NCBI GenBank assembly: GCA_000697355.1
Contig: JNEN01000835.1
Location: forward strand, 124,001-188,000
Origin: Syncephalastrum monosporum B8922
Lineage: Eukaryota > Mucoromycota > Mucoromycetes > Mucorales > Syncephalastraceae
Length of the DNA stretch: 64,000 nt
Direction: 5' to 3'
Under the pieces are notes generated by a model. That model did not search any database, was not told where the DNA came from, and saw only the letters and a program-made list of their open reading frames with translations. The stretch's first letter is position 1, and each line of letters opens with the position of its first letter. The translations under genes and the position numbers were made by a program. Of the stretch, positions 3,945 through 33,151 are shown one piece after another.

Positions 3945-4421
3945 GGCGGATCTCCTCTTGGCGTTGCAACGGATATAGCGCAGGCCTTTGTCCAAATCTC
4001 GGAGTCCATCAATACTTTGTAACGCTATTTTGCAGCTCGCTGATTAAGTGGTTGGAAACGTTCAATGTATACTTGGAGCTGACGAATGTCCTTGGGCGAT
4101 ACACCACTGTGCGTCGGATGCAACCTCGGATGCCTGGTGTTTGCGTGGTCTCTTTTCTTTCGACTTGCTTGCGTTTTGGGGGCATGACGTGTTAAGAATA
4201 AAGAATCACACAAAAAAAAAAAGGACTCCAATAAAAAAAATCACTCTTCCACTCCATTTAAGCTTGATTTTTTCTCACGATGTGTTGTATCAAAAGTAAG
4301 TGTTTAGTAGTATTGATTTGGACGACGGGCTATAGTGGAGCACTGTCTCTAGTAGTCAATGATGGTCAAGGCGTCAGGTTTGGCTGGAGATGAACGGACA
4401 CTGTTACTGGTATCTGCTGTG
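3945..4421. repeat. Right arm of the long inverted repeat
   Basis: Reverse complement of the segment starting at 2510. Read on the minus strand it gives a frame matching the left arm over QASRKKRDHANTRHPRLHPT, with small indels. It departs from the left arm inward of about 3945, where the spacer (3021-3944) begins. The spacer contains no frame I can assign to a known transposase. Confidence 0.75.
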
Positions 4422-4541
4422 TTCTACAGCACGTATTTGGGTTCTGCCGAACAGAGGAGCACTGCCTCTAGTAGTCAGTGATGGTCAAGGCGTCAGGTTT
4501 GACTGGAGATGAACGGGCACTGTTACTGGTATCTGCTACTT
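4330..4541. repeat. Imperfect tandem duplication at the outer end of the right arm
   Basis: The block beginning GTAGTCAATGATGGTCAAGG (about 4352) recurs about 125 bases later (about 4478) as GTAGTCAGTGATGGTCAAGG and continues with matching sequence through CTGTTACTGGTATCTGCT. The two copies differ by several point changes. The left arm has one copy only. Confidence 0.7.
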
Positions 4542-5857
4542 CCATGTGCACGTACTCGGGTTTCTCTGCCTTAGTCGTCCAAATGACAAGGGCTTGTTCG
4601 TTGCTAATGACGTTTTTTTTTTTCTATTTTACATAATCTCGCCATCTGCATGTGATGCGAGTTTCCTCACCAATCCATCCGAGCCATTCCACTGATGGTG
4701 TGGGCAATCCAGTATCAATATGACATGACGCAAAGCTGCTTTGTTTGCGTCTCATCGAACCCATAGGCGCCAACAAGAAGATAATGGATATGTAGACGAA
4801 GGATATATTATATAGCGGCCATCATTGGTGACAGTGGAGTTATGAAAACTGCCTACTGGACCACAATATAAAATCCTACACATAGGTCATTCAATTTTTC
4901 TACAAAGCTTTACATATGAGTGATCCAATTTGGTAAGGTGGGATGATTCATAAATATATTGCTCCATATCTCTACAAGTTCTTGCTTCACCTGATACGAT
5001 ATCGAAGCAAAAAGAAAGACCATATCATGACTACTTTTGGTGTCTCATGAGAAATGCTAGTGTAAGAGGCATCAAGAGAAACAGCGTAAATTCAAAGAGC
5101 ATAGAAAAGCCTTAAAAGGCACGGCAGTACCTTTCAAGGCTTAAAAAAGCATCAAAATGCCTCAAAATTCGCGCCTTAATAAGTTCTTGCAGTATTGCGA
5201 TGATATGAAATAAGTCAGCATATAGTGCTCTCTCAGTGATGGGACACCAATATACGGAGATAGTCAGCAGTGACATTATCTTCAGATGCTGCTTCAATAT
5301 AGTAATTAGAAAAACGATCAAGCGACGATAGTCAGTAGAAAACCTTTGTCACAGCGTATTGGATTATCCATGTGTATATTCCATATACAGTACAATACAA
5401 TTTCATAGTATTATCGATTCCTTACATGGTGTCATGTCCATGTTTATACGCAATGTCTACATGTTATGCCTTCTAAAGGCTCGATCTAAAGTATAATAGG
5501 ACACGATTGATGTGGATGACATCCACAGTCACTGGGCAATAAGCACGGACAGCCAGTAACATGGCAGACACGCTTCTTATAGTTATATATACTGAGCATG
5601 GTTCTCATATAGAATAGACAAGAGTCAGTGCTACGGTTCGATTTATGGCGAATAGTATGGATGGATATGAATGCACATGCCTGATTAGTAGTTTGAATAT
5701 ATAGACCGTGATCTCGAGGCGGTAATGAACTGTAAACCAAGGCTGAGTTGTAAAGTTGAAATGCCTTAGTAAGTCAAATTCGCGAATTGCATAAGAATAA
5801 TTCCCCACACTCGAGCCGACAATCAGGCTTTCCTCTGCTACTACCAGTGAAGCAAAC
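4542..5857. other. Intergenic stretch, no gene recognised
   Basis: About 1.3 kb of AT-rich sequence between the repeat element and the MDR gene. Short frames on both strands show no domain, and no RNA gene was recognised. Confidence 0.5.
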
Positions 5858-7075
5858 ATGAAGGGTTTCGTCGTCAACAAGTGGCTCAAGGGTCCTGAAG
5901 AAATGGTGCTGTCTACCAACGTACCTGCCCCGGAGCCCAAGAAGGGTGAACTGCAAGTGGCTGGTATGTAAAACTGACCTCCATCGACATCGCCGCTCAC
6001 GTTGAATGTCAAACCTTTCTAGTCAAGGCTGTCGGTCTCAACTTCTTTGACACACTCATGGTATAGTGATTTAGGCGATTCTCAACATGAGCACATCCTG
6101 ATTGGACAATCACCTTAGATCCAAGGCCGTTACCAGATCAAGCCACCTTTCCCTTTCATTCCCGGTGGTGAGTTTAGTGGAGTGGTGCTCAAGTCGACGG
6201 TGCCTGAATACAAGCCCGGCGATCGCGTCTTTGGCTCCAACTACTCCTTTGCCGAGATTATCACCGTCGATGCCAAGAAGGTGCTGCCTGTGCCCAAGAA
6301 CTTCACTTTCGAGCAAGCCTCCGGGTGAGTCCATGCGTGTTTCTCTGCGTATTCTTGATCGAACTAACAGTGTTGCAAAATCCCAGATTGTTCATCACCT
6401 ACCCCACCTCCTATTCCGCCCTCGTGCTCCGTGCGCAGCTGAAAGCAGGCGAGTACTGTCTTGTTCACGCTGCTGCAGGCGGCGTTGGACTGTGCGCCGT
6501 CCAAATCGCCAAGGTGCTCGGTGCCAAGGTGATCGCTACTGCCGGTTCGGCTGAAAAGCTTGAGGTGGCGAAGCGTTATGGCGCTGATTATGCCATCAAC
6601 TACCGTGACAAAGACTGGACCGAGCAGGTTAAGAAAATCACCAACGGGAAGGGCGCAGACGTTGTTTACGACCCTGTTGGCCTTGTCGAGCAGAGCACAA
6701 AGTGCACGGCATGGAACGGTCGCATCCTTGTCATTGGCTTCGCCAAGGGCGGCTGGGAGCAGCTCCCTACCAACCGCGTTTTGCTCAAGAATATCTCGAT
6801 TGTGTAAGTAGTTCTCTAAAATGTAGCGAAGTGTCATACTGAATGAGCTCCTTAGCGGTCTTCACTGGGGTGCTTATACCAAGAACGAGCCCGAGGCGAT
6901 TCCCAAAGTCTGGAAGGCACTGTTTGAGCTTTTTGAGTCAGGCAAACTAGCACCTGCCATCTATGACAAGGTCTACACGCTGGCCACTATTCCCGAGGGC
7001 TTGCGCGCGATCAATAACCGTGAGACATGGGGTAAAGCCGTTGCCACTGTTGCTTCTCCCGATAGCAAGTTGTAA
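5858..7075 (+). CDS. NADPH:quinone oxidoreductase-like MDR-superfamily enzyme
   Basis: Five exons (5858-5963, 6023-6060, 6119-6324, 6387-6803, 6856-7075) give about 328 residues, typical for zinc-independent quinone-oxidoreductase-type medium-chain dehydrogenases. The N-terminal GroES-like fold contains KAVGLNFFDTLM and PFIPGGEFSG. The nucleotide-binding domain has the glycine-rich AAAGGVGLCAVQIAKVLGAK followed by VIATAGSAEKLE, as in NADPH-using members. KGADVVYDPVG and the C-terminal KAVATVASPDSKL complete the fold. There is no structural-zinc cysteine lobe, so it is not an alcohol dehydrogenase. The likely role is NADPH-dependent reduction of quinones or enones in the cytosol; the substrate is unknown. 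All four introns are under 70 nt and fall at conserved positions that keep frame. Confidence 0.93.
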
Positions 7076-22429: not shown

Positions 22430-25400
22430 ATGAACAACAACTTTGGTCCGCTCTCGCCCTCCAATTCGTCTCGGCTTCCATCCGGCATCTCTCGCTCAGG
22501 GTCCTCGTCGAGCATTGTGCGGTCGACTTCGAATCGATCGCTGTTCCTGCGCGAGTCGACGTCGACATACCGAGTAACGAACATGAGCCGACAAAGTAGC
22601 AACAATACAGAACCGGGCGGTGAAGAGTGGGCCGCTCGTAATCTAAGCTCGGATTACCAAGAGATACAAAAGCGCACGCTCACTAAATGGGTCAACACTC
22701 AACTGAAGGATGAGGAACAGCCCATGACTACTATGGAAACAGATCTCAGGGACGGCATTCGCCTCTTGAAACTCCTCGCAACCGTTGCCAAAGTCCCGGC
22801 CCCCAAACCCGAGAAAGGCCGCATGCGAATACACCACCTCTCCAACGTAGCTCGTGCGCTCAGTTTTCTCGAGGATCAAGTCGGTGCGGATGCTTTGCCC
22901 GATATTGGAAACGAAGCTATCGTCAACGGCGATTTGAAGAAGACGCTTGCCCTGATTTACTGCATCATGCTTAAATATCAGATCCAGGTCATTTTGGAAG
23001 ATAAATCTCTGCTAGATGTAAGTTGAGATCAAAAGAACAGTGGGGTGATATGGCAGCATTGATAATGTTGGGGTGTCACCATAGGACACGATGAATACTA
23101 TGGGTGCCACTGCACCATCCACGCCCTTGCCGACTTCCCGAGGCAGGAGCAACAGCACGAACGCGCCTTTTCTCTCCGCAGCACGCCGGGCCGCTAGATC
23201 ACAGGGCCCTGCAGCTGCTTCTGCACATACACAAACAGAGGCCAAGCTCGTGCTCCTTCGTTGGGTCCGCTTGCAGCTTCATGATTACGTTTCGGCCAAT
23301 ATTATCCCCATTATACAGGATTTCTCTCGTTCTTGGCGGAATGGTCTCGCGTTTTCGCTCCTCATCCACAGACATGATCCCGACCTGATACCCTCCTTGT
23401 TCACCACCTATCTCCGCAACTCACAGTGGGATAAGCAGACCTGGCATGACCTTCTTACGTTGGACTTCCAAATCGCGCACGACGCGATGAACATTCCGCC
23501 CTATCTTGAGCCAGAAGATCTAACAGAAGTTGAATATCCACACGAACCGAGCGTCATGATGTATGTCAGTGAATTCTACAAGGTCATGTCTGTCACACAA
23601 AAAGAGCAATCCGAAGAAGAATCCCGAGTTTGCGCAGCAAAACGATCTGAGTGCATCGCCGCCGTCAGCGACCTTTTTCACATCGACGAGACACAAGAAG
23701 AACAGCAACTGGAGAACATTGATACCATTGTGGAGGAGGATCCAGATACCACACCGACCACACAACAAGACAAGGTATTGAATGTGAACATGCAATATTC
23801 TAAAGGTTGCCTACTGACATCCACTTCATATGAAAACAAGTTCTTGGACCAGTCATCTCCTGCACCAAACGAGGAAGACCAAGAAAGAAACGAGGCATCC
23901 GAGGTAAATAAAATGATTTGGAAAAGCATGCATAACTCAAGATGTGTAAAGCGGCCTCGAGCAACGGACGACATCAATCAAAGTCATGATGCAACAGAGG
24001 GCGCTAAATCAAAACCGACTGAATCGCCCGCCATAGACGAGCTAAAAGAAGTCATCGAACAACTTCGCCGATTTACGGATTCTGGCACATCGACCGTAGA
24101 GAACATCACCAACACACTGAATGACGACAATGCCTCCGACCACTTATCCACCCTCACCCTTCTTGAGCGCGAGAAAGATAAATATACACCCACGATTGAT
24201 ACCATGCACACCCTTTGCAATCGGATACTCTCCGAGAAGCTGCTGGAGAACCCCAACGAGATATGCGACGAATGTGAACTTGTCGACAAGAGCTGGGGCA
24301 CCCTGAAAGACCAAATCGAATCACTGCGAAATGCACTACAGAACAAGATCAGATCAGGTCTGGAAAAGCAGGACCCGGATGCCATGGCTTTCTTCCAAGC
24401 CTCAACGACTGCCGAGAAAGAAATCATTTCATTGCGGCAGTCCGTCGATGCAGCACACCCAAAGGTTGAAAACAAAGACGCCGCCGACGAAACACGGCAT
24501 CCGATTCATCCACTCGAAAGCACGCTTGAAACGTCTGACCAGTACGTCGCAGCTGTGGAAAGTACCGCGGCATCTGCGGATACATTTACAAATACGACAT
24601 GGATGGACATTCAACAACGGTACGAAGCTCTTGCAGGGCCGTCCAAATCAGCCATGCAGTCCCATTATGAGCGGCTACAGAGGCAAAAACAGGCTCTCAT
24701 CGAGACACTGGATCTGGGAAGAGAAAGAGCACAGCGCTTCAAACGCGGTGTCACATTCGGCACCATTACGCATGCTGTGGACGAGCAACTGGACGTGGTG
24801 CAGAAAATCATGGATGACAGCAAGGCGACGGTGACAAACAATGCCATCCAGAACCTTGAGGAGCGTGTCGATATGGTAAGGTCCACATTGTTCGCGTTGC
24901 GGGAAGAATACAACGACCTCCTGGGCGAGGAAGAAGACGCGGAAGCAGAGGGTGATACGGCTGCCTTTCGCCGGCCCTTTCGCGAAACGCTGGACAAAGC
25001 GCATGAAAAGTACGAGATCGTCCGAGACTGGGTGGACCAGGTGCGCGTCTGGTTCGTCGAGGCGGAGCGGATACGAAAATGGATTGGCGAGCGAATCGAC
25101 CTCATCCATGCAAGAGACCAGGTCAGCAAGGAGTTCGATCCGCTCAATACAGAGGTGTCCCTGGCCGATACCGAGATCATTCGACTCCATGAAGAGCACG
25201 AGAAGCTTCGTCGAGAAATCGAGCAATTCGATGCAGATGATATGACGAGACTACGGCAACACGTCAAGACCCTGACCGTTGCCGGACGAGACAAGGATCT
25301 AACGCCTGCAGATACGTCCACTATCGAGATTACGCTTACGACCCTCAATATGCTGAATCAACTGATGCAACTGTTGGGTAACCGCTCGTTGATGCTCGAC

Positions 25401-28400
25401 CTCGCTATGCGCCGTATCAACTGGGAAGGCCTTTTTGGGTCGGCTGTGCAATGGATCGCTGCAACCGACGAAGAACTGACACACTTTTTGCATTCCATGG
25501 CGCGCTGGTCAAAGAAGAACGAGACACCCATCGAAGAAGTTGTCAAGAGACTGGTCATGCTTGAGCGAAAAATCGCTGATTTCGACCAAGGCGGGTATTC
25601 CGAGGTGCTGGACGCGTATCAAGAAATGGATGATCTGCATCAGAGCGAATTAGGCCAAGCACTTCCAGATCACCTAGAGAAGCGGGAGGACAGCTTTGAA
25701 AAGGCCTTTGAGGATCTCATGAAACGGTGCGCCTTTTGCCGCAAGGTCGTGGAGCAGCATTTGGGAATCATGGAGGTCGTATCACAGTTCCGCAAGCTAC
25801 GCGATCAGGGCGAACGGTTGCGCAACAGCATGATAGGCTCGGAGGACACATCCGATAACGTACTGACCTCTGAGGGGGAAGAGCGATATGCGTCCCGCGT
25901 GCAAGATTTCAAGGACAAATCGGCCTACTTGATCACCAACGTAGCCTCGCGCGTGCCGTACCCGGAAACGCCCGATATGGCAACTGCGATTGGCGCCGAT
26001 GACGAGGCAGACAATCGACTAGCCAACGAAACCATCCGGAGCTCAATCAGCGCCTACGGTACATCACTCGCTTTGATCGCAGACGGCCTGGACCAACTAT
26101 TGAGCTCGCGCCAAGACATTCTCCAGCTGCAGCACCGTGCTAAACTGGCCTACGATGAGATGGCCCGCGTGAGGGCCTGGATGGAAGAGCGGTCGCGAAC
26201 ACTACGAAAGTCGCGCATCCAAATTTCTGCCCATGATGCTATGGAGGACGAGGAGCTCGCCCGCCTCGAAAAGGAAAAGGACGGAATCGCTTCACGGCTC
26301 AATCAGATTGAGCAGGAAGATCTCGCAAACCTGCTGCAGGACGTCCGGAAACTCGAGGACGATATTGACGCCACCAATGCGGTTTCCGTCGATCGTGCTT
26401 CGCTGGTGACAGGCATCGAAAGTCTTGAGAAAGCGCATCAACAGCTTCTGCAGCTCGTCGAGCAGCGCGGTACGGAACTTGATATGGTGAAGAAGCACCG
26501 GGATTGGCAAGTGCAGTGGCAAAAGTCCAACCAATGGATCGTCTCAACTGCACGCAAGCTCTGGGACCATATCGTTAAGCGGGCGCGCTATGATCCTTCC
26601 AAGGATGATGTTGACAAACCGTCTTTTGCCTCCGACAACGAGAACACCCAAATGCTACAGACGCTAAAGGACAAGGTCTCGGAAATTGGCGAACGACACA
26701 TGATACCCTCCTCCAACAGCTATCAGGAGCTGATCAATGGCCTCTCGACCTGTCAAATAGAAGATGCCACTCAAGTTGTACAGCTCTTTAATGAGAAGCA
26801 AGACGAGCTGGAGCGCAAGTACGCTGATCTGAAGCTTCTTGTGACCTATTGCTCAGAGTTATTGTCCCAACGGTCCTGCATCGTCGAGTTCTTGCTTCGT
26901 GCGCAGGACGCGCATCGCGACGGCGAAAAGATCCGTGATAGCATCTCAAAACTGTTACGCCGTAATATGCAAGAGAAAGACGACAGCGCGCTGGACGTTC
27001 GGACAAAGGCGTTCCAAAATGAGGTGGATAAAATATCAGAAGAATGCATGCAGCCCATGCTCTATCCTGCTTACAAGGGTACGGCGCTGCTGCGGTCACT
27101 CCAACCAACAGAGACGACCAACTACAATGCTCAGATCAAGGCTCAGATCAAGGCGCTGCTCGACCGCAAAATGGACGAGCTGCACGGCCTCCGAGAAATG
27201 ATTGATCAGTTACTGCAAAAATATGAACGCGCCAACGCTATCAAGCTCCTTGTCAGCCAGTATGACGAGGAAGCCGCACAGCTCCGAGTCTGGATTGAAG
27301 AACAGGAGCAAAAGCTAAAGCAGCAGCATGTGGACGTTGCAACCGACACAGTTGAGTTTTCCAGTGACCTGGTCAAGGAGTTCCAAACCAAGCAGCGAGG
27401 TCTGAAAGATGATGTTCAAGCCTTTGAAGTGGATAAAGTCCAGACTCTCCACGTCAAGGTAGCCCAACTGGTCGAATCATCCATGAACGGCAAGTCCAGT
27501 CCGGCCGTGGATGTGACAGGTGCAGCGCAGAGCTTGGCGGATGTGGTGGACAAGCTCGAGAACTTCAAGCAAGAGCTACACGGGCATGATGTGGCTCTGG
27601 ATGCTGCCACGAAGCGTCTGGTGTGGGAGGAACGCCTGCGTCTCGGAATGGAGCAGTTGGATGCTATGAGCGAGCAACTGCGCACGTTCAACACGAATAA
27701 GGCCCAGTGGCTTGCCCAAGACGACTTTGGCCTGGATCATGTGCGCTCCTTGGAAGAGACGTGGAGTGCTTTAAACAAACAAAAGAATGTGTTTGTCAAG
27801 AAATCACTGCCGCAGATCCAGGAGAGCTATGATGACTTTGTGGAGTGCTTCCCGCAGCTCTCGCGACCTATGGCCACCCCCGACCATATTGAAGCGCGCA
27901 TGGAGTCGCTCGCACGCGCGACAACGCGGTTGCAGGAAAATATGAGTGCCCGATCCAACGAGTTGGCGCTGATCAAGCGGCGTCTTTCCTTTGATCGTCA
28001 GCTTCAAAATGCCCTTGACTGGATAGCCGAACATGACCGACGTGTTGGTGCCTTTGTAAAGGACAAGGCACGCTGGCAGCCGGACGAGGATACGGCACAA
28101 GGTGCCGAGAGCGAGCTTCGAGATACCTGCGTCACCATGCACGACGACTTTGAGAAGCAAAAGGGCACAATGCTTGGGCCCCTCCGGGATGAGTTGGAGA
28201 GCATCCGGGAAGCTGCGATGCACCAGAACGTACCGCTCATTTCGGAGACGCTGTCTAAGCGACTTGTACACATGGATAATGCCGAGAATGCGCTGCAGGA
28301 GCACCTCATGTACGCCAACGAGGTCGTGACACAGCGGTTCCTGGTCGATGCGTTCCTGCTGCGCACCACACAACTGGAGCAATCAGCCGAAATGATACGC

Positions 28401-31400
28401 GAAGAATTTGCATCAAGCCAAGAGGACGGTGCCAGCGAGACACAGCATGGCGAGCGTCTGGAGCGATTCAAGGCCGGCATCGATGACGTGCGAGATAACT
28501 TGACTACCCAGGTGCCCTACCCGACGCGCAATGGTAACTTGCATGGGGATACCATCAATTCGGTTATTCGGGACCCCCTGACGAGCCGCAACCAGCGCCT
28601 TCAGGAACTCTACGAGAGTCTGTATGCTTTACTCGAATCCAAGGAAAGCGTGTCACGGCGCAAAATTGTCTTTGATACCTTTGCCAAGGAGCTGGCAGCC
28701 TGCCAGGCGTGGATCGCATCCCACAAGTCCTCTCTGGACGCGTGCCTTGCCAAGGAACGTGACCTGGAGAGCCTTCGAGAGGGTATCCAGATAGCCAGCA
28801 GTATCGAGGCAGCGATGCAGGCCAAGAACAACGCGCTCTCTGTCCTGAAACAAGCTTTCCAGAAATGCCTTGCTGAAGATGAAGCAAGTAGCGATCAAGC
28901 GGCCGTAGACAAGGCAGAGGCCGCATGGCAGGATTTGAAGGAGCAAGCAACGTCAGCCAAGAACGGGTTCGAAAAGGCACTGGTTCCAGCTGAACTACGG
29001 GCCCGTTCTGCACGGTTGCTCCAGATGTTTGCGGACCTCGAGGCGCAGGTGTCGGTCGCGGACGTGACGACTGTCGGTGATGAAGCCATCGCGCAGTGGC
29101 AAAAGCAGCTGGACGAGCTGGAGCGCAAGGAGTACACGGAATTACAAGAGGAAGTACAGAAGATTCCAGAAGAGACGGTCCAGTCCGAATTGGAAGCGAT
29201 GGGTGAGACGATCGTCGGTATCCGCTCCACTATCACACAGCTCTACGATACTCTGAATGCAGCTCGCTTGAAGAAGACGCATGCCGAGAACACTGAAGCC
29301 TTGCAGAAGCGCATACAACAGATCAGAGCATCGACTGCTGCTGCCCGCGAAGAGAATCAGCAAACCTGTCAGACCGAAGAAGCATTGTCACAGCAACAGC
29401 GGACACTCGCGACTCTGCTCAAGGATATCAAGCAGCAGCAAGATGACTGCAAGGAGGCGGTCGACGACTATCACGCGTATCACAAGTTCATGCTTACGCA
29501 AGTTGGTGACGACGATGCCTTGGCACAAAAGCACGGCGCGATTCAGAGTGAATGGCAAGGCCTGACGGCTGCCGTGGATGACCTCGCTGGGCTGTCAGCA
29601 GCGCTTTCGCAGTGGGTTGACTGTCTGGACAGGATTGCCAAATCCGCGGATAAGCTGGGTGGTATCAACGTGGAAGACGAAGCAGCTGAGGCCGAGCTCG
29701 CAGGTATCAGACAGGCACTTGAACATGTGCAAGAAGATGCACGTGCCATCGCGGATGACCATCAAAGGGCCCTCTTTGATGCACGCTATGCCTCTGTAAT
29801 GGAACACGTGGCATCGCTCCACGAAGCTGTCAAACGCCACGGCATGGACCGCGAGAAGGAACTCTTGCTGGCTTCGGTGGATGCCCACCTGAAGCGCGTT
29901 CGCGGTGCTTGCGAGGAGCAGGGAGAAACACTGAGAACGGAACCAGGCGCTGCTGATATGAGTCCAGAGCAGATCCATGCCTGTTGCCAGGACATGAGAT
30001 CAAGAATTAGCAAAGCAGAGGAAACATGCAGCAGCAACCAAGACGAGCTCTCTGCAACCAGCTTCTGTCAAAGCCTCCAGAAACTCAACACAGCGCATGG
30101 TGTTTCAACCGACGCCATGGTGCAACCGGCCAAAAATGCTTTGGCGCAGTTGGAGCAACTAATCCAAGAAAAAGCGGCCTACTTGGAACAGCTCAAGCTT
30201 TTCGGACGGCATGCGCAACAAGCACTTGATATGCAACAAACACTCCAAGATGTACTAGACGAGAAGACTGATGGCACTGAGGACTGTGAAGAGTTATATG
30301 CCAAGCTTATCGAGCTAGGTGGTCAGCTCAAAGATGAAAAGATGCGTGAAGCCGCTCAGAAGCGCGAACAAGACCTGCTCTCCCAGCTGGAGAACGCTAA
30401 AGCGATCGTTCAGGTCCGCAAAGACAAGCAGCAGTACGACGGTGCGACGAGCAAGCTATCTGAGGTGCTTCGGCGCGTGGATGTTCTTAAAAACCGAGTG
30501 GGCTCGCTGAGCTTGCAGCCGGGTAAGAGTATGGTGACAGTCGAGCAGCAGGAGCTGCAGGAGATTGGACAAGAAGCCCAGCAAATCCCGTGCGACGAGA
30601 TCGATAGCATGTTGGCAGCCATGAAGAGTGACGAAGCGCTTCAACAAAAACGCGCCGAGCTTACGCGAAGTTTGTCCGAGTTGGACGAGCTCGTCAAGGC
30701 GCGCCACAAGAAGGTCCTAGAGCAAAGCAACATTTCCAGCTTTCTCAGTCTCGTCAAACAGCTTACTCGACATGTGAACGCGCTCGCAGACGCGATCGAG
30801 GACGCTGCACCGCACCATGCCAGCATTGTGGGCAATGCGTTCAACAAGACCGACCTGCAGGCGTTGCTTCGCAGTCTGGTGAATGCATACAAGGAGCACG
30901 AGCCCAGCATTAGCAAGCTCGTGGCGCAGACGAAGGCTGAGGCGCAAAAGTACGAGGGTGATGAACGCGTCTCCGAGCAGCTGGCGCAGATCTTGGCGCG
31001 GTGCAATAAGGTCAAGGCATCGGCTGCGGCGCGCGAGCGCGAACTGCAGACCTGCATCAGCCAGCTCGACCACGAGTTTTTCACCAAGCTGGCTATGGCC
31101 AAGACAACATCGCGTCGCAGGGAGACGAGCACAAGTAAGAGACCGCCTGGACTGCCGAGCACGGCGCGACCCAGCTCGAGTCAAGGAAATCACAGCACAT
31201 CCAGTACCCCGCCGATACGTCGGAGCCGAGTCCCCTTACGACCCTCCAAGACCCCCGTGCCGGCCCAACTGCCGCCCTCGCGGTCGGTGTCACGAACGCG
31301 CTATGTCGCGGACCCCAAGAATGAGCTGGATATGGAGCTCGGTCGCATTGTCAACGAAACACCCTACCGCGTCAAGGTCAAGATGGTCCCCGGCGAGGTG

Positions 31401-32002
31401 GGTAAGTACTGGTTCGGCGATATCAACCCCCGCCTGGTGTATTGCCGCATCTTGCCCAGCAAGCTCGTCATGGTGCGTGTGGGCGGTGGATGGGTTGAGT
31501 TATCCAAGTAAGTGACAAGGACAAGAGCCAAGGGGGGAACACGGTATTAATACAGCCCTTTTTCCAAAGGTTTCTGAGGGACCACAACATGACCACAGAC
31601 GAGCATCCCCACTCGACGACAAGTAGCGGGTCTTCAGCCGGTTCAGCCACGTCGAGCACTACGCAGCTGCAAGCACGGTGCGTATCTCCGTCAGGTCGCG
31701 TGACAATTCGCGGTGGAGGCGCTGGTGGAGCCGGGAATGGCAATGGGTCGGGCGCAGGTGGGGCGGTGAGCACGACGAGCAGCAGCAACAGCGACAGCCA
31801 CAGCCTTTTGACTGCACCTCCCACGCGGTCGAGTTCAAAGTCAACATCAAGCCGTCGGTCAAGCAAGACACCCCGGCAAGGCTACGTCGACGGCGACAAG
31901 TATATCCGAGTGGATGAAGCTGGAAATCAAGTGACAGTCAAGATGACCAAGGCCGAAGACGGGGCCAAGATGCCTATTATCACCCGCAAAAAGTTACCAT
32001 GA
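22430..32002 (+). CDS. Giant spectraplakin-like cytoskeletal linker (CH-CH, spectrin-like rod, GAS2/GAR)
   Basis: Three exons (22430-23017, 23085-31507, 31570-32002) encode about 3147 residues. A Ser-rich leader is followed by CH1 (about 81-193; RTLTKWVNTQLKDEE, LRDGIRLLKLLATV, IVNGDLKKTLALIYCIMLKY) and CH2 (about 248-362; DFSRSWRNGLAFSLLIHRHD, LEPEDLTEVEYPHEPSVMMY). This tandem is an actin-binding module. A rod of about 2400 residues follows, helical and rich in spectrin-like motifs (VRVWFVEAERIRKWIGERI, VRAWMEERSR, LRVWIEEQEQ, NALDWIAEHDRR). After a Ser/Pro/Arg-rich hinge, residues 2942-3008 form a GAS2-related (GAR) domain ending KYWFGDINPRLVYCRILPSK and GGGWVELSKFLRDH. A basic Gly/Ser/Arg tail completes it. 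GAR domains bind microtubules, so the protein should crosslink actin and microtubules. EF-hands, which precede GAR in animal spectraplakins, were not seen. The start at 22430 was chosen because the upstream frame is pyrimidine-tract leader. Confidence 0.93.
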
Positions 32003-32087: not shown

Positions 32088-32180
32088 ATGTATCCGCTGA
32101 TTGTATGTTTACTGTATATGAATCGAGCGCTTTTAAATTTGAAAAAGAAAAAAGGTTACTTTTATGCAGAAACGGCCAAT
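32088..32180 (+). repeat. Direct repeat, copy 1
   Basis: Begins ATGTATCCGCTG and ends AACGGCCAAT. A diverged copy lies at 33054-33151 in the same orientation, with shared GAAAAAGAAAAAAGGTTACT and TTTATGCAGAAACGGCC. The two copies bracket about 870 bases. Confidence 0.75.
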
Positions 32181-33053: not shown

Positions 33054-33151
33054 ATGTATCCTCTGCTTGTATATATACTGTATATGGATCGAGTGTTTCT
33101 AAATGTGAAAAAGAAAAAAGGTTACTGTATTTTATGCAGAAACGGCCCAAT
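33054..33151 (+). repeat. Direct repeat, copy 2
   Basis: Begins ATGTATCCTCTGCTTG and ends AACGGCCCAA; diverged copy of 32088-32180, with a short insertion in the TTACT..TTTATG region. Confidence 0.75.

Follow-up and report, generated by a model that had tools for sequence, protein, structure and literature searches.

The window, by which we mean the whole 64,000-nucleotide stretch of DNA that was analysed, carries a giant gene on the + strand at positions 22430-32002, in a 27.5-Mb assembly of Syncephalastrum monosporum B8922. Joining its three exons yields a single frame of 3147 residues with one terminal stop, encoding a tandem CH pair, a long repeat rod, a basic linker and a GAS2-related (GAR) domain, with the following features:

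22430-23017, + strand: exon 1, encoding a Ser-rich N-terminal leader and CH1 (joined frame; junction shared with S. racemosum P0002)
22664-22981, + strand: CH1 domain (Pfam CH, 58.8 bits, E 7e-16)
23018-23084, + strand: intron 1, GT..AG (splice check of the joined frame)
23085-31507, + strand: exon 2, encoding CH2, the rod, the basic linker and most of GAR (open for 2808 codons)
23241-23588, + strand: CH2 domain (Pfam CH, 53.6 bits, E 2.8e-14)
24054-31025, + strand: rod of about 19 spectrin-like repeats of about 122 residues each, R-2 to R16 (profile self-comparison, repeat HMMs, AF2, fold matches)
25155-28823, + strand: block-duplicated part of the rod, interpreted as A B C A B C A A B C (HH self-comparison of windows)
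31098-31301, + strand: basic Ser/Pro/Arg linker, where animal spectraplakins have EF-hands (composition; low pLDDT)
31329-31590, + strand: GAR domain, split by intron 2 (Pfam GAS2, match to the MACF1 GAR)
31508-31569, + strand: intron 2, GT..AG, within the GAR coding region (joined frame, alignment to P0002)
31570-32002, + strand: exon 3, encoding the end of GAR, a Ser/Gly-rich spacer, a C-terminal motif and the stop (joined frame, alignment to P0002)
31880-31999, + strand: conserved C-terminal motif GYxxGDKYIxxDxxGNQxxVKMxKA (loose pattern, family tails)

The coordinates and splice sites proposed in a preliminary description of this DNA proved exact to the base. Besides the GT..AG borders and the unbroken joined frame, they agree with the annotated Syncephalastrum racemosum orthologue P0002, the closest relative carrying an organism name, which is collinear with the window protein, runs unbroken over both junctions and is identical at 2585 of 3110 aligned residues (83%). 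A closer relative, P0001, shares 98% identity across 90% of exon 2. At intron 2 the frame would also survive an acceptor 9 bases later or a donor 9 bases earlier; the S. racemosum orthologue supports the borders 31508-31569. P0001, P0003 and similar entries end at ...VELSK and look like readings missing exon 3, GAR being split by this intron. Just 3' of the gene lies a 73-nt direct repeat (32088-32160 and 33054-33126; 88% identical, 966 bases apart).

That neighbouring genes or chance open frames were joined in reading is hardly credible: the 8.4-kb exon 2, whose open frame is far beyond chance, by itself carries CH2, the rod and most of GAR, the orthologue is collinear across both junctions, and precomputed domains place CH and GAS2 together in 77 of the 80 proteins returned by a CH2-based search. 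Since a single exon encodes CH2 along with most of GAR, separate transcripts for the CH and GAR parts are unlikely, and the original reading of a single gene with a CH pair, a rod and a GAS2-related domain is borne out by one frame with two Pfam CH matches and one to GAS2.

Both CH domains exceed the Pfam cut-offs in an HMM search, as had been claimed for them, and provide the protein with a tandem N-terminal pair of the actin-binding type, as in animal spectraplakins. They are strongly conserved in a family alignment of 34 sequences (window exon 2 and 33 homologues from clades A and B of the family tree described below). When the profile of this alignment was compared with the PDB, the CH pair matched alpha-actinin at 2.4e-57 and beta-spectrin at 4.6e-57, followed by dystrophin (3.3e-47), plectin (1.1e-41) and MACF1 (2.5e-36), all among the best 60 of 77 matches. 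The actin-binding domains of alpha-actinin, beta-spectrin and dystrophin, three proteins not known to carry a GAR domain, are thus its best sequence matches, and MACF1 and plectin are not its best-scoring relatives. The gene is not itself an alpha-actinin, in which a short rod is followed by C-terminal calmodulin-like EF-hands: its rod has about 19 repeats and no Pfam EF-hand is detected. A separate alpha-actinin-like gene lies on contig C78 of the same genome, with CH pieces found by tblastn and an EF-hand-like frame recognized by eye. An AF2 model of the N-terminal part, computed without an alignment, reached a pLDDT of only 43 and was unusable.

The rod had been described as bearing spectrin-like motifs, and this description stands on its tandem repeats, on their predicted three-helix fold and on a profile match to beta-spectrin, although the Pfam Spectrin model (PF00435) finds no match in the window protein. 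The same model found nothing in the whole genome, a weak test given that control genomes gave no match either, and in three relatives its scores fell short of the curated threshold (P0037, 9.3e-6; P0113, 6.9e-6; P0157, 2.3e-4). The family profile matches beta-spectrin repeats (3edv) at 2.6e-7, among the best 60 of 77 matches. In an AF2 model of 27936-31505, the rod part is predicted to form spectrin-type three-helix repeats, and alpha-actinin and spectrin repeats are among its best fold matches; Foldseek alone returned no PDB match for it at E<=0.001, the best being desmoplakin spectrin repeats at 1.8e-3. Profile match, periodicity and fold together indicate a spectrin-repeat rod, as in animal spectraplakins.

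Repeat borders were derived from the period. In the self-comparison of the rod, 148 of 3321 window pairs reached an HH probability of at least 95, all at offsets of about 1, 3, 4, 6 or 7 units; the rod has grown by duplication of a three-repeat block. In Endogone P0157 the models of the individual repeats were all recovered (19 of 19) and in order, but in Mortierella P0158 and Basidiobolus P0161 they gave scattered matches only, with no three-repeat block duplication seen. The Mortierella alpina protein P0158 (3539 residues, CH-rod-GAR) has a rod that shows no collinearity with the rods of the Mucorales type, and unit R7 is the best match for three of its stretches, as though this rod had been assembled afresh.

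Between rod and GAR lies a strongly basic linker, with 15 K/R against 1 D/E in 68 residues. An S-K/R-T-P element in the linker was discarded as a feature, being too patchy (52 of the 159 anchored sequences defined below). The GAS2-related domain claimed for this region scores above the Pfam cut-off on exon 2 alone (36 bits, E 6.3e-9); the spliced domain matches the MACF1 GAR 5ve9 at E 1.7e-5 and also matches GAS2, and the family profile matches the MACF1 GAR at 3.8e-7 (among the best 60 of 77 PDB matches). Exon 3 alone gave nothing credible in Pfam. The Cys-x-Cys of animal GAS2, whose cysteines we take to be zinc ligands, aligns with Tyr-Arg-Val in the window GAR.

Cryo-EM of GAS2 places K237, R242, R252, G254-256, W257, K266 and H267 facing tubulin, and mutation of K266 weakens binding (PMC12084551). 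Out of 165 sequences, we tallied these positions in the 159 carrying a VxVGGGW anchor, leaving out the six without it. Arg occupies position 242 in 157 of the 159, and the same number have Lys or Arg at position 237; among the 133 anchored sequences that extend far enough, position 267 is His in 116, and position 266 is Asp in 100, unlike the Lys of GAS2. R252, GGG and W carry no weight in this tally because they are part of the search anchor; they are invariant in the 34-sequence alignment. The microtubule-contact residues of GAS2 are thus mostly kept in the fungal family, K266 being the one that differs.

The C-terminal tail, announced as a basic Ser/Gly/Arg tail, is indeed Ser/Gly-rich but only mildly basic (17 K/R and 9 D/E among 138 residues), the strong basicity residing in the linker before GAR. 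Beyond its low-complexity spacer lies a motif of about 25 residues that had been overlooked, present in all four clades of the family and in 97 of the 119 anchored sequences whose tail runs for 60 residues or more past the VGGGW anchor. It corresponds to no Pfam family, and its loose pattern was not found in Endogone P0157, Mortierella P0158 and P0160, or Umbelopsis P0132. Binding of EB1 through an SxIP-type motif was also considered; the window protein has just two matches, both loose and neither near GAR, and for this reason we make no EB1 claim.

Three homologue searches were run, one of which scored the 7985 candidates sharing most words and another of which listed 120 of its 237 matches. 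Among the matches listed, relatives with organism names are fungal and come chiefly from genera that we take to belong to the order Mucorales, with which the window protein shares full-length collinear homology, and additionally from Endogone, Mortierella and Basidiobolus; Umbelopsis is represented by P0132, with GAS2 only, and Podila and the mushroom Cyclocybe by one long protein apiece. NCBI taxonomy assigns Endogone to Mucoromycota, Mortierella alpina to Mortierellomycota and Basidiobolus to Basidiobolomycota, and a Pfam scan found two CH stretches and GAS2 in each of P0157, P0158 and P0161. The gene family is real, conserved and little known.

A family tree was built from 163 sequences, comprising 159 listed homologues and four readings from this genome (FastTree, midpoint-rooted, 2574 columns kept; P0063 and P0064 excluded). 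It resolves four clades, and the S. monosporum genome holds one giant paralogue in each: clade A contains the window protein (40 sequences, not counting the poorly placed P0059), clade B the member on C86 (57 sequences), clade C that on C17 (45 sequences) and clade D that on C24 (8 sequences). Clade C has no CH1 and retains a degenerate CH2-like domain (23 sequences, HH probability 96 to CH2), and its rod and GAR are kept; its giants, such as L018 on C17 and P0066, might bind microtubules while lacking an actin end. P0063, a Podila minutissima protein of 4716 residues in which helicase domains are joined to CH and GAS2, is probably a fused gene model. Two further GAR loci in the genome have no CH listed nearby and are possibly a second fungal GAR family: on C126 (L020, 3160-5769, - strand) a frame of 870 residues has a GAR preceded by a stretch rich in Ser and Pro, and on C159 (L021, 3873-4559, - strand) a GAR lies in a 229-residue frame adjoining a frame of 816 residues (4394-6841, - strand).

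In view of this architecture we consider it probable that the window protein is a fungal giant cytolinker that works in the manner of a spectraplakin and was assembled within the fungal line. Its tandem CH head would bind F-actin, the rod would space or tether the two ends, over about 100 nm if extended, and the basic linker and GAR would bind the microtubule lattice, so that the protein could tie actin cables or the cortex to microtubules in coenocytic hyphae. We infer such a long tether from what CH pairs and GAR domains are established to do, and the linker role, for which sequence support is good, should hold. The Asp common at position 266 and the Tyr-Arg-Val in place of Cys-x-Cys speak against this reading. 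Clade C, lacking CH1 and keeping rod and GAR, implies that crosslinking is not essential to every member. The same clade lends some weight to a rather improbable alternative, in which the protein is mainly a binder or bundler of the microtubule lattice, or a cortical substitute for spectrin, with a weak or autoinhibited CH pair and crosslinking not its main job. The failure of PF00435 to find a spectrin in the genome, a weak test as noted above, and the presence of an alpha-actinin-like gene also speak for this alternative. Against it, the two CH domains of the window protein lie well over the cut-off and are strongly conserved throughout clades A and B.

A crosslinking protein of this kind would most resemble the animal spectraplakins (MACF1/ACF7, dystonin, Shot), whose order of CH pair, long helical repeat rod and GAR, with probable actin and microtubule ends, it shares as the preliminary description had it. 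The absence of EF-hands noted there also holds: at E<=1, Pfam returned neither an EF-hand nor an SH3, plakin or plectin-repeat family, whether for the window protein or for six relatives (P0002, P0037, P0113, P0157, P0158 and P0161). The fungal protein further differs from animal spectraplakins in a CH pair that does not score closest to MACF1/plectin, in its repeats of about 122 residues with their fungal block duplication, in not conserving the Cys-x-Cys of animal GAS2 and in its extra C-terminal motif. Other known systems are more distant. Yeast Kar9 is a far shorter chain (375 residues in its structure) that is not known to have a CH or GAR domain. GAS2 and GAS2-like proteins share the GAR domain and most of its tubulin-contact residues, and GAS2 is not known to have a long rod. 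Unlike the fungal protein with its CH pair, GAS2 is described as having a single CH3 domain (PMC12084551).

The origin of this likeness was approached through the CH pair. In a tree of 20 chosen fungal CH pairs and eight references (seven PDB chains and the alpha-actinin of this genome), with its fimbrin as outgroup, the fungal family forms one clade (SH-aLRT 99.9, UFBoot 100). Topologies were compared without the outgroup on 238 columns (20 chosen fungal sequences, 8 references, two rows partial). Forcing the fungal pairs together with MACF1 and plectin cost 5.7 log units and was rejected by AU (0.022), although not by KH (0.072) or SH (0.12); AU rejected none of the other placements, with actinin (0.36), dystrophin (0.62) or spectrin (0.09). 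We read this as modest evidence against placing the CH pair close to plakins. Separate assembly is favoured because of the CH topology, the fungal rod duplication and the missing EF-hand, plakin and SH3 parts taken together: an actinin-, spectrin- or dystrophin-type CH-rod protein would have been joined to a GAR module, and the rod would then owe its length to fungal block duplications, with no EF-hand, plakin or SH3 part.

The competing history is direct descent from an opisthokont spectraplakin that predated the animal-fungal split, fungi having lost the EF-hands and plakin region that animals kept or gained. The identical domain order and the occurrence of CH pair and GAS2 in Basidiobolus and Mortierella besides Mucoromycota speak for it, and Paradzik et al. 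(2022, PMC9145010) argue for spectraplakin ancestry at the opisthokont base, partly from fungal CH/SR/GAS2 forms. We nevertheless regard it as unlikely, given the AU rejection of the MACF1/plectin grouping (which KH and SH do not share), the lack of EF-hand, SH3 and plakin matches in the seven proteins scanned, and the failure to find a rod like that of the window protein in Mortierella P0158 or Basidiobolus P0161. Assembly separate from that of animal spectraplakins is the better reading without being conclusive. Of the earlier suggestion that the protein is ancient or independently assembled, antiquity within fungi stands, Basidiobolus, Mortierella, Endogone and many Mucorales all having the CH pair together with GAS2, and independence is favoured, though not conclusively, by the three lines of evidence given above.

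The statement that this architecture is usually described as a metazoan one no longer reflects the literature, and the novelty attached to it has been cut down because PMC9145010 reported the same general domain combination in Fungi in 2022, in the shape of different intermediate CH/SR/GAS2 forms. Among the open-licence papers that our searches listed, it is the one found to deal with fungal CH/SR/GAS2 proteins, and none of the other titles listed is an experimental study of a fungal member. Section 2.3 of that paper does not deal with Mucorales paralogue families, rod history or a C-terminal motif, and its main text contains no word starting with 'mucor'. As far as our literature searches reach, what is new are the four paralogue clades, one of them having lost CH1, the block duplication in the rod, the C-terminal motif conserved in the family and the evidence against the CH pair being a near relative of plakins.

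A broader scenario, which we offer tentatively and rate somewhat short of an even chance, is that early-diverging, mostly coenocytic fungi invented a spectraplakin system of their own: a CH-rod-GAR giant may have arisen before Mucoromycota, Mortierellomycota and Basidiobolomycota separated, been lengthened in three-repeat blocks in Mucoromycota, and given rise in Mucorales to four paralogues that divide the work, one with the microtubule end only. The family is relevant to the question whether spectraplakins are older than the split between animals and fungi, and its GAR domains may fold without the animal cysteines. Giants that crosslink actin and microtubules have been studied in animals; four of them conserved in fungi would amount to an independent natural experiment in linker building, and would offer a simple test system in hyphae.
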